The notes under the pieces were generated by a model. The model had not been told where the DNA came from, ran no database searches, and saw only the letters and a program-made list of their open reading frames with translations. Shown piece after piece: positions 3,422 to 63,176 of a DNA stretch of 64,000 nucleotides. Both the position numbers and the translations under genes were made by a program. Source of the DNA: Pseudobutyrivibrio ruminis CF1b (lineage in GTDB: Bacteria; Bacillota; Clostridia; Lachnospirales; Lachnospiraceae); assembly GCF_000424005.1 (NCBI RefSeq), contig NZ_AUJB01000008.1:186001-250000 (forward strand), read 5' to 3'. Positions within the stretch are counted from its first letter, which is position 1. Each line of letters opens with the position of its first letter.

Positions 3422-4435
3422 ATGAATTTAAAAGATATTGCGGCACTTGCCGGGGTTAGTACCGCTACAGTGTCAAATGTTCTAAATGGTAACAATAGCA
3501 AGGTTTCTCAGGAAACCAGAGAAAAAATAGAAAAAATCATCAAAGAAGTAGACTATAAGCCAAATGCCATGGCCCGCTCTCTGGCTAAAAAGGAGAGTAA
3601 GATTCTGGGCCTGGTGGTTCCATATATAGGGGCTGAGGATGATTTCCTCATGAACCCATACTATGCCCGCATGGTGGCTGCCATCGAGCGTTTTGTAAGA
3701 AACAGGGATTATTATCTGATGTTAAGATGTGTTCCAGATTGCAGGGCGGTAATACCTCTGCTTTCTTCATGGAATGTGGATGGAGCATTTTTCCTTGGTG
3801 TAATGGAAAAGGATGTGGCAGAAATACAGGACGCTCTGGGTGCGCCTGTAGTATTTCTTGATACATATTCAGACATCAAGGATACAGTTAATGTTGGTCT
3901 GGATGACTATAGAGGTGGATATCTTTCTGCCAGATATCTGGCTGGAAAGGGGCATAGAAATATAGCTTTAGTCTGCCCTGACTATCATGAGGCAGGAGTA
4001 GTAAGAGAGCGATATCTGGGCTTTACTGCAGCCCTGAAGGAGCTTGATATAGATTTTACTGAGGATGATGTTTTCAAGGTAGATACTATATACAAAAACG
4101 CAGTAAGCGTAGGCCTGGATGTAATGCTGGCAAAGAAGAAATACACTGCGGTAGCCACTATGTCTGACGTGGTTGCCTTTGGTGTAGTGGAAGGAATAAA
4201 GCAGTGCGGTCTTAAGGTGCCGGAGGATATTTCCGTGGTAGGCTTTGATAATTTACCGGAGTGTGAATTTATGACACCTAAGCTTACTACAATCTCTCAG
4301 GATTTTGCTGCAAAGGCCAAGGCAGCTGTGGAAGGAATGTTCATGATTCTTGAGGGCCAAAAGGATGGCGGAGAGGATCTGCATCTGCCGGTACAGCTGA
4401 TAGAACGCCAGTCAGTTAAAGATATAAGTGAATAA
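3422..4435 (+). CDS. LacI-family transcriptional regulator (maltodextrin/starch locus)
   Basis: The 337-residue protein starts with a typical LacI helix-turn-helix (LKDIAALAGVSTATVSNVLNG) and hinge helix (YKPNAMARSLAKK), followed by a periplasmic-binding-protein-like sensor domain. A GGGGAA ribosome binding site precedes the ATG. It sits between a GH31 alpha-glucosidase and a sugar ABC transporter; matching palindromes with a central CG lie at its own promoter (3389-3402) and at the transporter promoter (4595-4608). The inference is a MalR-like repressor released by maltose or a maltodextrin. LacI members can also activate, so the direction of control is not certain. Confidence 0.92.
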   Translation: MNLKDIAALAGVSTATVSNVLNGNNSKVSQETREKIEKIIKEVDYKPNAMARSLAKKESKILGLVVPYIGAEDDFLMNPYYARMVAAIERFVRNRDYYLMLRCVPDCRAVIPLLSSWNVDGAFFLGVMEKDVAEIQDALGAPVVFLDTYSDIKDTVNVGLDDYRGGYLSARYLAGKGHRNIALVCPDYHEAGVVRERYLGFTAALKELDIDFTEDDVFKVDTIYKNAVSVGLDVMLAKKKYTAVATMSDVVAFGVVEGIKQCGLKVPEDISVVGFDNLPECEFMTPKLTTISQDFAAKAKAAVEGMFMILEGQKDGGEDLHLPVQLIERQSVKDISE

Positions 4436-11700: not shown

Positions 11701-12627
11701 GCTGCAAACTTCTATGCATGGGCTGACGGTATCGGAGACGTTGAAGGCGTAGGCGGATGGCCAGGGCTTGCAATGACTCACATCGGAAATGGATGGCATT
11801 CAGTAAATGTTCCTGACAGCATTTTGAGAGAAGTGGCTGAGGATGCAGCAGAAGACGAAGAAACAGCCGATGAAGCAGAAGTGGCTGAGACAGCAGATGA
11901 TGCTGAAGAGGTTGTGGAAGATGCTGAGGATGTTGTAGAGGAAGAGTCAGAGGAAGTAACAGAGGAACCAGAGGATGCTTCTGATGAGGATTCAGAGGAG
12001 ACAAGTGTACTTGAGGATGTAGTTGAGGAAATCAAGGAAGTTGTAACAGCAGTTGTAAACTTCATTTCATCAGCATTAAATCCTACATTAAAGGTAATGG
12101 CTGCAGAGAGTGACATCTTTGCAGATGGAATTCATGTTATTGTAAACAATGGCAATGGATTCCAGGAGGATGATGTAAACGCTAGATGCACATTAGATAG
12201 ACCAAGTGCAGAGGAGCTCAAGCAGGAAGAAGAGGCTGAGGAGCCAGTTCCAGCACCAGCTCCAGGCGGATCAGGAGAACCAGCTCCAGCAGAGCCAACA
12301 CCAACTCCAGAGCCAACACCAGTACCAACTCCAGAGCCAACACCAGTACCAACACCAGAACCTACACCAGTTCCAGAGCCTACTCCTACTCCAGTAGTAG
12401 AGCCAACCCCTACACCAGAGGTTGAGCCTACTCCAGTAGTTGAGCCAACCCCTACACCAACTCCAGTTGTAACACCAACACCAACACCTGAAGTTAAGCC
12501 AACACCAACTCCAGTTCCACAGAAGCCATCTAGGGAACAGGTAGAGCAGGTAGTTCGATATGTGGTTCAGCAGGTAATTATCTTTGTTAAAAAGGTTGTA
12601 GATTTCTTTAGAAGTTTTTGGAGATAA
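8758..12627 (+). CDS. Secreted GH13 alpha-amylase with tandem CBM26-like starch-binding modules
   Basis: The 1289-residue protein starts at ATG 8758, 8 nt after AGGGAGG, with a signal peptide. The GH13 domain (about residues 45-510) has [17 protein letters not shown] (nucleophile Asp238), YGEV (acid/base Glu287) and ESHDN (Asp359). Five starch-binding-like modules follow near residues 518, 609, 719, 854 and 966; the last four have the W-DG-GGWPG signature, the first is divergent. The fifth is split by an insert of about 95 residues (about 1022-1118) rich in Glu and Asp and ending in a hydrophobic helix. A Pro-Thr-Pro-Glu linker (about 1161-1256) and a hydrophobic/basic tail of about 32 residues end the protein. 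No LPXTG motif is present. It feeds the neighbouring maltodextrin importer. Confidence 0.95.
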
Positions 12628-40426: not shown

Positions 40427-40452
40427 CTAAACTTTTTTTCATTCTTAAATTG

Positions 40453-40485
40453 GAAAGGCAGTCCTTAGGGGCTGTCTTTTCTTTT
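40453..40485 (+). terminator. Terminator of the arabino-oligosaccharide operon
   Basis: AAAGGCAGTCC pairs with GGGCTGTCTTT through several wobbles, then a T-rich tract. Confidence 0.75.
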
Positions 40486-40504: not shown

Positions 40505-40735
40505 CACAACCTTATCAGGCAGATAATATAAGTGAGATTGTAAATATATCTGCTAAATCATCAATATCTGGCAGATAAAAACAAAGTTATTTTATACTTA
40601 TCTGCTGAATCATCTGTAATCGGCAGATAAAATAAATGGTATTTTAAATATATCTGTTAAAAGCTCTTTATCAGGCAGATAGATTAGGAAGTATTACAAT
40701 TATATCTGCTGGGAGTCCCATATTCAGATGATAGA
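40505..40735. repeat. 52-bp tandem array with alternating TATCTGC / GCAGATA arms (array 1)
   Basis: TATCTG-type arms start at 40547, 40599, 40651 and 40703, exactly 52 bp apart. GCAGATA arms start at 40519, 40571, 40623 and 40675, also 52 bp apart; the next, at 40727, is degenerate. About 4.5 units are present. Units are diverged between arms (roughly half the positions differ), while arm positions are strictly kept. It occupies most of the 461-bp gap before the flavodoxin gene; no coding potential is seen. Confidence 0.9.
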
Positions 40736-40810
40736 ATGAACAGAGTTTATCGCAATTCATATAGAAAATGCGGGGGGCCAATAACTTTTGTGATTATAAA
40801 AAAAGAATAC

Positions 40811-40839
40811 TTGATTTAATTGCGTGCAATTGATATAAT
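40811..40839 (+). promoter_or_regulatory. Promoter with OhrR-type operator (flavodoxin/nitroreductase)
   Basis: TTGATT (40811-40816), 17 nt, TATAAT (40834-40839) with TG one base before it. AATTGCGTGCAATT (40818-40831) fills the spacer and differs by one base from the reverse complement of 20265-20278. Confidence 0.8.
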
Positions 40840-40887
40840 GGCCATAGTTAGTTTAGTGAAACATTTAATTTTATAAAGGAGGTCATG

Positions 40888-41277
40888 ATGGGTAAGGCAG
40901 TTAGATATTATTCAAGAAGTGGTAACACAAAGGCTTTAGCAGCGGCTATTGCAAATGGCGCCAGCTGTACAGCAGTTTCTGTTGATGAGGCAGGGGCAGA
41001 GATTAAAGAGCCAGTAGAAATGTTATTTATAGGTGGTGGACTTTATGCCTATGGAATTGATAAGAAGCTTAAGGCTTATATCAGAACATTAGATGGAAAT
41101 AAGGTTAAGAAAGCAGCTGTATTTTCTACATCATGGCTTTCAAAGCACGCTCTTGATTTACTTAAGGATGCGTTAAAGGGACGTGGAATAGAAGTAGTAG
41201 AGGAGACATGCTACGCTAAGAATATGCCAGGAGTAGAGGAACTTAAGGCAGCAGAGGAATTTGGAAAGAGGTATTAA
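40888..41277 (+). CDS. Flavodoxin-like protein
   Basis: The 129-residue protein has the FMN phosphate-binding loop YSRSGNTKALA and the GGGLYAYG loop, followed by FSTSWLS. It is slightly shorter than usual flavodoxins. ATG 40888 is preferred to ATG 40885 because AAAGGAGGT ends only 1 nt before the latter. It may carry single electrons, for instance to the NADPH-motif-less thioredoxin reductase whose promoter shares the same operator; this link is inferred. Confidence 0.85.
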   Translation: MGKAVRYYSRSGNTKALAAAIANGASCTAVSVDEAGAEIKEPVEMLFIGGGLYAYGIDKKLKAYIRTLDGNKVKKAAVFSTSWLSKHALDLLKDALKGRGIEVVEETCYAKNMPGVEELKAAEEFGKRY

Positions 41278-56084: not shown

Positions 56085-58721
56085 ATGGCTAACAAATGGG
56101 TGTATATGTTTAGCGAAGGTGACATGTCAATGCGCAACCTTCTCGGCGGAAAGGGTGCTAATCTTGCAGAGATGACAAGCATTGGCTTACCAGTACCACA
56201 GGGTTTCACAATCACAACAGAGGCTTGTACTCAGTACTATGAGGATGGCCGTAAAATTAACGACGAGATCATGGCTCAGGCTATGGAGGGTGTTAAGAAA
56301 ATGGAAGAGATCAACGGCAAGAAGTTCGGCGATCTTAAGAACCCACTTCTCGTTTCAGTTCGTTCAGGTGCTCGTGCATCTATGCCAGGTATGATGGATA
56401 CAATCCTTAACCTTGGTCTTAATGATGAAGTAGTTGCAGCTATGATCGCTGGTAACCCAGATCCAGCTTTCGAGCGTTTCGTATATGATTCATACAGAAG
56501 ATTTATCCAGATGTTCTCAGATGTAGTTATGGAAGTAGGTAAGAAGTACTTCGAGCAGCTCATCGATGAGATGAAGGAAAAGAAGGGTGTTAAGTTTGAC
56601 GTAGACCTTACAGCTGCTGACCTTAAGGAACTTGCAGAGCAGTTCAAGGCAGAGTACAAGAATCAGCTTGGTTCTGACTTCCCTTCAGATCCAGTAGAGC
56701 AGTTAAAGCTCGCTATCGAGGCAGTATTCCGTTCATGGGACAACCCTCGTGCAAACGTTTACAGAAGAGACAACGATATCCCTTATTCATGGGGTACAGC
56801 AGTTAACGTAATGCCAATGGTATTCGGTAACTTAAATAATGAGTCTGGTACTGGTGTTGCATTCACTCGTGACCCAGCTACAGGCGAGAACAAGCTTATG
56901 GGTGAGTTCCTTATCAACGCACAGGGCGAGGACGTAGTTGCTGGTGTTCGTACACCAATGCCAATCGCTCAGATGGAGAAGGAGTTCCCAGAGGCATACG
57001 CAGAGTTCATCAAGGTATGTGAGACTCTTGAGAATCACTACCATGATATGCAGGATATGGAGTTCACAGTAGAGAACAAGAAGCTTTACATGCTCCAGTG
57101 CCGTAACGGTAAGAGAACAGCTCCAGCTGCTCTTAAGATTGCTTGCGACCTCGTTGATGAGGGACACAAGACTCCAGAAGAGGCTGTAGCAATGATCGAC
57201 CCACGTAACCTTGATACACTTCTTCACCCACAGTTCGAGGCTGCTGCTCTTAAGGCTGCAACTCCACTTGGTAAGGGCCTTGGTGCTTCTCCAGGTGCTG
57301 CATGTGGTAAGGTTGTATTTACAGCAGACGATGCTGAGGCATGGGCTGCTAGAGGAGAGAAGGTAGTTCTTGTACGTCTTGAGACATCTCCAGAAGATAT
57401 CACAGGTATGAAGGCTGCTCAGGGTATCCTTACAGTTCGTGGTGGTATGACATCACACGCTGCAGTAGTTGCTCGTGGTATGGGTACATGCTGCGTTTCT
57501 GGTTGTGGCGACATCAACATGGATGAGGAGAACAAGAAGTTCACTCTTGCAGGCACAACATTTACAGAGGGGTCTGAAATCTCTATCGATGGTACAACAG
57601 GTAACATCTACGCTGGTATCATTCCAACAGTTGACGCTGTTATCGCTGGCGAGTTCGGTCGAGTAATGGCTTGGGCAGATGAGTTCAGAAGACTTAAGGT
57701 TAGAACAAATGCAGATACTCCAGCTGATGCTAAGAAGGCTAGAGAGCTTGGTGCAGAAGGTATCGGTCTTTGCCGTACAGAGCACATGTTCTTCGAGGCT
57801 GACAGAATTGCAGCATTCCGCGAGATGATCTGCTCAGATACAGAGGAAGAGAGAGAAGTTGCTCTTGATAAGATTCTTCCTTACCAGCAGGGAGACTTCA
57901 AGGCTCTTTACGAAGCACTTGAGGGATGCCCAGTTACAATCAGATTCCTTGATCCACCACTTCACGAGTTCGTTCCTACAGAGGATGCTGATATCGAGAA
58001 GCTTGCAAAGGCTAAGAATAAGTCAGTAGAGGAAATCAGAAACATCTGCGAGTCACTCCACGAGTTCAACCCAATGATGGGTCACAGAGGATGCCGTCTT
58101 GCAGTTACATATCCTTCAATTGCTAAGATGCAGACAAAGGCTGTTATCCGTGCAGCACTTGAAGTACAGAAGGCTCATCCAGATTGGAATGTTAAGCCTG
58201 AAATCATGATTCCACTTGTATGTGAGGTTAAGGAGCTTAAGTATGTTAAGGACGTTGTTGTAGAGACAGCTGATGCTGAAATCGCAGCAGCAGGCGCTAA
58301 GCTTGAGTACGAAGTTGGTACAATGATCGAGATCCCACGTGCAGCTCTTACAGCTGATGAGATTGCTAAGGAAGCTGACTTCTTCTGCTTCGGTACAAAC
58401 GACCTTACACAGATGACATTTGGTTTCTCTCGTGATGATGCTGGTAAGTTCTTAAATGCTTACTATGATACAAAGATTTTCGAGAACGATCCATTTGCTA
58501 AGCTTGACCAGACAGGTGTTGGTAAGCTTATGGAGACAGCTATTAAGCTTGGTAAGCCAGTAAATCCAAACCTTCACGTAGGTATCTGCGGTGAGCACGG
58601 TGGAGACCCATCTTCAGTAGAGTTCTGCCACAAGATTGGTCTTGACTATGTATCATGCTCTCCATTTAGAGTACCAATCGCTAGACTTGCAGCTGCACAG
58701 GCAGCTATCGCTAACAAGTAA
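56085..58721 (+). CDS. ppdK: Pyruvate, phosphate dikinase
   Basis: The 878-residue protein is full length. The N-terminal ATP-grasp region includes VSVRSGARASMPGMMDTILN, the central phosphohistidine motif is GGMTSHAAVVARGMG (His458), and the C-terminal PEP/pyruvate domain has GICGEHGGDPSS with acid/base Cys835. It interconverts pyruvate and PEP with PPi and AMP, and in anaerobes often works as the glycolytic step. AGGAGG is 8 nt before the ATG, and codon use is strongly biased as for abundant proteins. The final 25 bp are duplicated at 62949. Confidence 0.97.
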   Translation: MANKWVYMFSEGDMSMRNLLGGKGANLAEMTSIGLPVPQGFTITTEACTQYYEDGRKINDEIMAQAMEGVKKMEEINGKKFGDLKNPLLVSVRSGARASMPGMMDTILNLGLNDEVVAAMIAGNPDPAFERFVYDSYRRFIQMFSDVVMEVGKKYFEQLIDEMKEKKGVKFDVDLTAADLKELAEQFKAEYKNQLGSDFPSDPVEQLKLAIEAVFRSWDNPRANVYRRDNDIPYSWGTAVNVMPMVFGNLNNESGTGVAFTRDPATGENKLMGEFLINAQGEDVVAGVRTPMPIAQMEKEFPEAYAEFIKVCETLENHYHDMQDMEFTVENKKLYMLQCRNGKRTAPAALKIACDLVDEGHKTPEEAVAMIDPRNLDTLLHPQFEAAALKAATPLGKGLGASPGAACGKVVFTADDAEAWAARGEKVVLVRLETSPEDITGMKAAQGILTVRGGMTSHAAVVARGMGTCCVSGCGDINMDEENKKFTLAGTTFTEGSEISIDGTTGNIYAGIIPTVDAVIAGEFGRVMAWADEFRRLKVRTNADTPADAKKARELGAEGIGLCRTEHMFFEADRIAAFREMICSDTEEEREVALDKILPYQQGDFKALYEALEGCPVTIRFLDPPLHEFVPTEDADIEKLAKAKNKSVEEIRNICESLHEFNPMMGHRGCRLAVTYPSIAKMQTKAVIRAALEVQKAHPDWNVKPEIMIPLVCEVKELKYVKDVVVETADAEIAAAGAKLEYEVGTMIEIPRAALTADEIAKEADFFCFGTNDLTQMTFGFSRDDAGKFLNAYYDTKIFENDPFAKLDQTGVGKLMETAIKLGKPVNPNLHVGICGEHGGDPSSVEFCHKIGLDYVSCSPFRVPIARLAAAQAAIANK

Positions 58722-58767
58722 TTGGCGGTTTTGTTGTTTGGCTAGTGAAATATAATTGAGTATTGGG

Positions 58768-58807
58768 CCCAGCCCTTCGGTTCTGCCGAGGGCTGGGTCT
58801 TTTTTTG
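58768..58807 (+). terminator. ppdK terminator
   Basis: CCCAGCCCTTCGG (58768-58780) and CCGAGGGCTGGG (58786-58797) with T7 after TC. A duplicate lies at 63020-63059. Confidence 0.95.
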
Positions 58808-58834: not shown

Positions 58835-59105
58835 GCGGGCAGTGCTGGCGGCGGTTTTAGGATTTGCACTGCCTGGAAACAGCTGCACAGGCAGTGCAGA
58901 TTGGGAGATTTATGATTTGAACTGCCCTTATAGAGCGATTCGAGCAGTGCTGGAAAAGAAAATGAAATTAGCACTGCTTTAGAGAAGAGATTGGAGCAGT
59001 GCAAAGGGAGAAAATGAATTCAGCACTGCTCTGGAGAAGTGAAAAGGGCAGTGGTAGAAAAGAAAAAGAATCCAGTACTGCTTTAAAAGATAAGGAAGAT
59101 GTGGC
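58835..59105. repeat. 52-bp tandem array with alternating GCAGTGC / GCACTGC arms (array 2), insertion-like
   Basis: GCAGTG-type arms start at 58839, 58891, 58944, 58996 and 59048 (52, 53, 52, 52 bp apart). Opposite arms start at 58866, 58919, 58971, 59023 and 59075. Arms thus alternate orientation every 25-28 bp. GTGGC occurs at 58830-58834 and 59101-59105, and only once (63082-63086) in the array-free copy. Confidence 0.9.
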
Positions 59106-62948: not shown

Positions 62949-63176
62949 ACAGGCAGCTATCGCTAACAAGTAATTGGCGGTTTTGTTGTTTGGCTAGTGA
63001 AATATAATTGAGTATTGGGCCCAGCCCTTCGGTTCTGCCGAGGGCTGGGACTTTTTTTGTGGGTTTGCCTAGGCGTTTCCGGTGGCCTGGGTTTTGAAAC
63101 AGAGAATAGCGGGACTAATATAGATTTGGTATTTCATGAAGACTAAGGATTCTGTATAATTAAAGGCAGTGAAATT
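62949..63176. repeat. Direct repeat copy 2 (array-free)
   Basis: It begins with the last 25 bp of ppdK, includes the duplicated terminator, and continues to GGCAGTGAAATT. Relative to copy 1 it lacks 271 bp and has about four substitutions. The copies bracket 59196-62948. Confidence 0.95.

Follow-up and report, generated by a model that had tools for sequence, protein, structure and literature searches.

Arrays of short alternating words at near-constant spacing precede most examined genes of a nuclease-like family and recur as solo arrays in Pseudobutyrivibrio

The window analysed here is a stretch of 64,000 nucleotides from Pseudobutyrivibrio ruminis CF1b, positions 186001-250000 of contig C1 in an assembly of 3.27 Mb (G000; G, C and L numbers are our handles for genomes, contigs and loci). 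It carries two arrays of short arms in alternating orientation, each preceded by a terminator-like hairpin of the upstream gene (Table 1). By reading of its sequence, the gene upstream of array 1 would encode an alpha-L-arabinofuranosidase, and the gene on its 3' side (40885-41277) a flavodoxin-like protein; the scan that gave the promoter-like site of the latter found 4 such sites in the region against 2.2 expected. Array 2 follows a putative pyruvate phosphate dikinase (ppdK)-like gene, and a stretch resembling the hairpin between them is also present in L112 and L183/L253.

Array 1 consists of eight arms, four on the + strand (40518, 40570, 40622 and 40674) and four on the - strand (40547, 40599, 40651 and 40703), with a same-orientation step of exactly 52 bp in 6/6 cases and half-gaps of 29 and 23. 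Array 2 has ten, at 58838, 58890, 58943, 58995 and 59047 (+) and at 58866, 58919, 58971, 59023 and 59075 (-); its step is 52 bp apart from one of 53 on each strand, and its half-gaps are 28-29 and 24. The initial annotation had recognised both arrays, their alternating arms and their 52-bp period, all of which hold, but had array 1 begin at 40505, 13 bp ahead of its first arm. Its statement that the two share no arm sequence does not stand: GCAG is common to both arm sets (GGCAG followed by ATA in array 1, [AG]GCAG followed by TGC in array 2), and the word of array 2 occurs again in a third array at C6:21531-21720.

An exact repeat of the final ~29 bp of the ppdK-like gene lies ~4.2 kb further downstream (62949-62977, 100%), and G003 and G009 each have near-exact copies at three more sites. 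Array 2 and the array of L097 follow such copies, which resemble attachment sites of islands inserted in series.

Table 1. Features around the two arrays of the window, and arrays in the leaders of nuclease-like genes of the same genome. Locations are window positions; for leader arrays, the nuclease-like gene that the array precedes is given by contig and position.
Feature	Location	Strand	Remarks
Intrinsic terminator of upstream gene	40452..40481	+	Scan: 1 found, 0.1 expected; array 1 starts just 3'
Array 1, solo, orphan word	40518..40710	.	Arms GGCAGATA / TATCTGCT, period 52 (29+23)
Promoter-like site of next gene	40811..40839	+	TTGATT-17-TATAAT, 10/12; scan
3' end of pyruvate phosphate dikinase-like gene (name by reading)	58697..58725	+	att-like short repeat
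Terminator-like hairpin and T-run after dikinase-like gene	58765..58806	+	Read from sequence; array 2 next
Array 2, solo	58838..59082	.	[AG]GCAGTGC / GCACTGC[CT], period 52-53 (28+24)
Leader array, GCAGTG	C2:252469
Leader array, AGGTAGTA	C1:653389
Leader array, CTACGG	C7:22957
Leader array, TTTACGGGT	C7:55955
Leader array, TTGACAAA	C6:38585
Leader array, CTACGTGAGG	C3:69728
Leader array, GGCATAAA	C2:370635

In G008 the genes flanking array 1 are collinear, and counterparts of the terminator hairpin and the promoter-like site can be read there, but array 1 is absent; the alignment resumes at window position 40802. G008 does carry an orthologue of array 2 after the same gene (86% over 611 bp). 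After the same terminator, G011 has an array with another word and period (GGATGCAT, 31/32 = 63), next to which come a scrap resembling a GCAGTGC array (CTGCTTCTAGCACTGC) and then an apparent homologue of the sequence that follows array 2. Among 20 loci of the ppdK-like gene that were scanned, several of them cut short, an array of this kind was seen in three (G000, G008 and G011), and one (L189) has a short unrelated chain.

Copy number varies between arrays with shared flanks: G014 holds a single arm pair (by eye), G022 has five units, and the two copies of G003 have nine and eleven (L102 600-800, L110, L095 4620-5095 and 8880-9460). At L259, on contig C8 of our genome, a GGTAGTA array and the end of its upstream gene are duplicated ~8 kb away with 88% identity over 336 bp (3789-4086 and 12170-12543). 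By eye, a miniature element whose inverted ends resemble TTTCAA(N)CCTGCTTG adjoins several arrays (L020 7520-7650, L046 13160-13190, L057 19665-19800) and interrupts that of L226 (1850-1990).

The 52-bp period, which the initial annotation had proposed to seek elsewhere, recurs in the genome and in the genus. Scanned for 8-mer chains, the window together with 60 further stretches of 20 kb (1.264 Mb in all) gave 16 places, whereas a first-order Markov copy of this sequence gave 0. The 16 include L065, described next, as well as L048 and L074, which have no clear assignment. Three scanner matches were set aside: L161 looks like coding sequence, L255 consists of short-loop inverted repeats, and L065 is a cluster of TTATCCACA boxes (DnaA-box-like) that served as a positive control and that we take to be oriC-like, next to an apparent rpmH. 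A DNA search with array 3 gave matches in 19/61 genomes, all within the 29 genomes of the genus and none among the 32 others, and 314 kb from two other genera held no alternating array of such kind. One genome of another genus (G036) has recent whole-unit triplications around short hairpins with a 78-79 bp period (L177 17817-17992 and L180 163-360), a distinct phenomenon, and G032 has one 7-mer chain. The exact GCAGATA pair of array 1 at exactly 52 bp is present in 2/29 genus genomes; outside array 1 it occurs once in G000 and once in G008, as single pairs.

Arms differ by locus or family, as the initial annotation had suggested for its two cases, and the genus uses at least 15 words. Our catalogue of 38 arrays, some of which are orthologues of each other and some nuclease leaders, with arm cores chosen by eye, comprises GGCAGATA, RGCAGTRC, AGCAGTAA, AGRTAGTA, GGCATAAA, TGCTATAA, TTACGGGT, CTACGTGAGG, GGATGCAT, TTGAYAAA, GCGATAAA, AGGTATAAC, AGTATCACTT, AGTTAAGT and TTGACACATA; nuclease leaders add CTACGGTC, CTACGTGA, TTACGGAA, AACTGTAC and one palindromic GGTACC core. 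The words of the 52-bp class (RGCAGTRC, AGCAGTAA, AGRTAGTA and GGCAGATA) are similar and may share ancestry. With Rfam 15 at the gathering score, no match fell on an array in the window and 13 further loci, and three matches fell off arrays (6S, lysine riboswitch and TwoAYGGAY). The titles and abstract openings of the open-licence papers searched contained nothing describing such arrays or the nuclease-like family introduced below.

Across 50 arrays with exact cores, 252/275 gaps lie within 1 bp of the family mode while the spacers have diverged, which extends to the genus what had been noted for arrays 1 and 2. Counting adjacent opposite-orientation gaps in 37 arrays with exact cores, the figure is 200/213. 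Periods are mostly near 52, 62-65 and 72-76 bp, with single ones of 83-85 and irregular arrays at L253b (AGTTAAGT) and L142. The median periods of 11 families (52 in four families, 63, 65, 72.5 in two, 73, 74 and 75) concentrate on a 10.5-bp cycle with R = 0.854, a value reached by 0/20000 uniform draws, although R overstates independence, since kinship is possible among the four 52-bp families and between the families of TTGACAAA and TTGATAAA.

The earlier suggestion that arms recur on similar faces of the helix gains from the family periods, which lie near whole turns, whereas phasing of the irregular gaps is moderately supported and its test depends on how families are grouped. In the set of 37 arrays, 11 gaps deviate from the mode by more than 3 bp, eight of them by an amount that matches a multiple of 10.5 to within 0.5 bp (p 0.0007), the three misses being +24, +29 and +4; allowing one mismatch in the arms gives 19 such deviations and p 0.019. 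In the set of 50, grouping L230 with GCAGTA by their shared core yields 21 deviations and p 0.62, because eight gaps of L230 are then counted as deviant: this array keeps the 52-bp period, but as 23+29 instead of 28+24. With L230 as its own family, 8/13 deviations fall within 0.5 bp of a multiple (p 0.003).

In the clearest cases, one gap varies and the other stays nearly fixed. In the TTACGGGT family the distance from + to - arm is fixed at 31-32 and that from - to + is 21, 31, 41, 52 or 63; in the leader of C2:252469, + to - is 28-30 and - to + is 13, 34 or 55, versus 24 in solo arrays of the same word. These cases suggest a fixed inverted pair and whole-turn steps from one pair to the next. 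Such a pair, with its arms ~28-32 bp apart in families where one gap varies and ~43 in GCGATAAA arrays, is probably the functional unit.

The words are tied to one family of nuclease-like genes, a link that, like the shared GCAG, the initial annotation had missed. Reading the neighbours of rare-word arrays revealed similar proteins beside four of them (L028, L044, L050 and L252). In the CF1b genome this family has nine paralogues, seven of which have a clear upstream array, each with its own word (Table 1). The leader of an eighth, C3:142632, holds scattered GCGATA words, some at 74 bp, with a chain score of 0, and an array there is only possible; upstream of C8:85598, and of G003:2403310 in a relative, there is none. 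Eight leaders from same-genus relatives, picked among the matches listed (L098 is one of them), comprise by eye seven with an array and one without.

We scored leaders by a fixed 6-mer chain over the 700 bp upstream, with a threshold of at least 5. This score was reached by 12/17 same-genus nuclease genes (7/9 own paralogues and 5/8 relatives' genes from the protein list) versus 17/954 other ORF starts (ORFs of at least 150 aa; Mann-Whitney p 1e-41), and by 9/14 when three own genes that had been met through their arrays are left out. Searching the collected loci with tblastn gave further linked genes: the products of L099 and L108 are 52% identical to that of C2:252469 and go with GCAGTAC arrays, and that of L238 is 97% identical to the product of C1:653389 and goes with a AGGTAGTA array. 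L103 has a partial nuclease-like gene with the array on its 3' side. By eye, a promoter-like site lies before the array in six leaders (L028, L260, L261, L268, L269 and L271); at C6:38585 the array precedes the promoter-like site. The leaders of L261, L269 and L271 also share, by eye, TTTATCACTT..TGGCA..TCGCCA(C)AGTTTTC between promoter-like site and array. The only leader read outside the genus (L272, in G078) contains many 14-bp direct repeats TCCAACAGGCAAAT and no alternating arms.

Judged from their sequences, the proteins form an undescribed family of ~265 aa with a PD-(D/E)XK-like C-terminal domain. Ten aligned members have invariant RSKSE, PDF and EH.G motifs. For the four of these ten that were submitted, Pfam and NCBIfam returned nothing over the cut-off, and the PADLOC model PDC-S68 matched the C-terminal part in 4/4 (best E 3.5e-28 to 5.9e-22), with a weaker match of HEAT_CxxC_PDDEXK to the same proteins. 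A structure predicted from 10 sequences (pLDDT 85, pTM 0.56) suggests an N-terminal part with a helix, three strands and a long helix, followed by a mixed C-terminal domain. Foldseek ranked DrdV, Bax1, R2 retrotransposon proteins and MunI among its best matches to this model; several of the best are nucleases of PD-(D/E)XK type, but with E values of 0.0076 and up, all above 0.001, the resemblance is weak. The N-terminal part alone had no informative match, and the single match of a PDB profile search, a chorismate mutase chain aligned to this part (E 0.0048), was taken as chance. Three paralogues of one subfamily are without ATG, GTG or TTG at their conserved N-terminus and may start at ATA, ATC or ATT (L263 ~985, L264 ~987 and L050 ~19343).

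The family is present in at least 28/29 genomes of the genus and at least 12/60 outside it. Seven plasmid records have only the C-terminal domain in common with it, as do nine viral loci, where this domain sits inside longer frames with no 8-mer chain or array nearby.

Several words are common to linked and solo arrays: GCAGTG/GCAGTA, AGGTAGTA, TTACGGGT and TTGACAAA. Solo arrays 2 and 3 have the word of the C2:252469 leader, which is itself mixed (three GTGC, three GTAC); L020a, L073 and L259a have that of C1:653389, L049 and L057 that of C7:55955, and L030 that of C6:38585, and L020b and L046 may go with C3:142632. The word of array 1 is in none of the nine leaders of its own genome. In G003 the linked array L099 has GTAC in 6/7 arms and the chromosomal solo arrays have it in 11/18 (L095a), 18/22 (L095b) and 15/16 (L096), by counts from the arm table; an alternative word count has GCAGTACTGC twice. 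A copy on an 89 kb contig of G003 is 94% identical to array 3 over 385 bp and has GTGC in 6/8 arms.

Over nine protein-array pairs, protein identity correlates with similarity of period (r 0.54, permutation p 0.0076) and shows no correlation with similarity of word (r 0.11, p 0.27), in a comparison that has n=9, a crude word metric and the doubtful C3:142632 as one of its pairs. We read this as spacing being set by protein architecture while the word changes fast.

We consider it reasonably probable that the arrays serve as DNA lattices with many sites, each family of arrays being recognised by its own cognate, self-associated nuclease. Dimers of the nuclease would read inverted arm pairs and, with the pairs phased by whole helical turns, bound dimers would assemble on one face of the DNA. 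Most nuclease genes examined in the genus have an array just upstream, and in six leaders this array follows a promoter-like site; most simply, each protein would bind the array of its own leader and thereby control itself. Solo arrays, arrays 1 and 2 included, would derive from such leaders, either as non-coding copies that dispersed or as relics.

The arrays might instead act as RNA, transcribed as tandem hairpins in leaders and intercistronic regions in the manner of REP hairpins in mRNA, which we regard as improbable. Both arrays of the window do fold better than shuffled sequences on the + strand (z -4.0 for array 1 and -8.5 for array 2; on the - strand, -1.6 and -8.1), and several leaders come after promoter-like sites. 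Among the 32/38 arrays with both neighbouring ORFs found by crude ORF calls, 25 lie between codirectional, 6 between convergent and 1 between divergent ORFs. On one strand, mostly that of the upstream ORF, purines make up ~60-80% of the spacers in many 52-bp arrays, with L230 as an exception; this skew is not explained by a DNA lattice and leaves room for a role at transcript level. Within the variable core columns, + - partners agree slightly more often than distant arms (183/257 vs 741/1175; - + partners 161/244), a small excess that could come from duplication of neighbours. Against an RNA role, the core-flanking bases in 27 arrays show no preference for pairing with the adjacent arm over the remaining arms of the array, whether as contiguous pairs (+ -, 1.03 vs 0.91; - +, 0.91 vs 0.90) or as the total of six (2.14 vs 2.25; 1.70 vs 1.81). 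Transitions in the arms are wobble-tolerated in 47 cases and non-tolerated in 59, with 60 G.U against 75 A.C pairs, in 34/38 arrays (all but L020b, L030, L050b and L142) whose orientation was taken from gene direction or the purine strand. Nor is there an evident cause for gap changes of ~10.5 bp if the loops are single-stranded. On the pairing and transition counts we reject RNA hairpins as the conserved feature, and they do not support the structured RNA that the initial annotation had listed as a possibility; weak support from core identity remains. The compensatory change between arms that it had named as a check is likewise missing, which counts against RNA pairing and not against a protein lattice.

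It is also unlikely that the arrays are neutral satellites, in which tandem duplication of an inverted pair built the array while template switching or gene conversion homogenised the arms. Units are clearly duplicated, being near-identical in array 3 and L095, copy number varies at one locus, and array 1 is missing from G008 despite collinear genes; yet spacers have diverged under near-constant gaps, direct partners have no pairing signal of their own, and the arrays are strongly associated with one gene family. Binding by a general host factor (gyrase-, IHF- or HU-like) is the reading to which we give very little weight. It would follow the precedent of BIMEs, which are reported to bind gyrase and IHF (PMC2817692), and alternating geometry and intergenic placement are as in BIMEs, but one factor explains neither the many words nor their link to nuclease genes.

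REP/BIME elements with RAYTs (REP-associated tyrosine transposases) are among the closest known systems: they are regular, alternating extragenic units with dispersed copies, and the product of an adjacent gene coevolves with the repeats (PMC2817692). The arrays have this alternation, regular extragenic spacing and dispersal, and lie beside a gene, but the enzyme is PD-(D/E)XK-like where RAYT is a Y1 transposase; Y1_Tnp (PF01797) had 0 matches in G000, and the control was positive in 5/14 genomes. The REP unit, as defined in PMC3733652, is a palindrome of 20-40 bp with a GTAG or CGTC tag, whereas the arms here are words of 6-12 bp, many per genome; on inspection, GTAG or its complement is in 4/20 words (AGGTAGTA, CTACGTGAGG, CTACGGTC and CTACGTGA) and CGTC in 0/20. 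With no Y1_Tnp match and arms that are not REP palindromes, we do not place the arrays in REP/RAYT.

The proteins share a C-terminal domain of ~100-130 aa with PDC-S68 and HEAT_CxxC_PDDEXK, candidate defence proteins of PADLOC, but the PDC-S68 models have ~1200 positions and the proteins here ~265 aa. CRISPR arrays also have short repeats and diverged spacers of near-constant length; the repeats here alternate in orientation, and the spacers of several arrays are diverged copies of each other. Iterons are usually direct repeats at origins, in front of a Rep gene, phased by whole turns and involved in self-control. Own-word arrays before the gene of their presumed reader, whole-turn phasing and putative self-control would be alike, and alternating arms, a nuclease-like protein and scattered solo copies would be different. 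The logic thus resembles that of RAYT-REP/BIME or iteron-Rep pairs, by analogy and with no claim of homology.

More tentatively, at slightly under an even chance, we propose a chromosomal element whose PD-(D/E)XK-like nuclease reads, within the leader of its gene, a lattice built from a word of its own, the protein clade setting the spacing and the word being rewritten fast, with many distinct pairs and solo lattices per genome. Such an element could be a selfish family or a system for marking self versus foreign DNA. If true, it would be an answer to the origin of BIME-like arrays that does not involve RAYT. It would also supply a natural collection of protein-DNA pairs whose recognised word has changed many times under an almost constant geometry. 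Coevolution of reader and site, and the part of phasing in cooperative binding, would then be testable with the ~ten paralogues of one genome.
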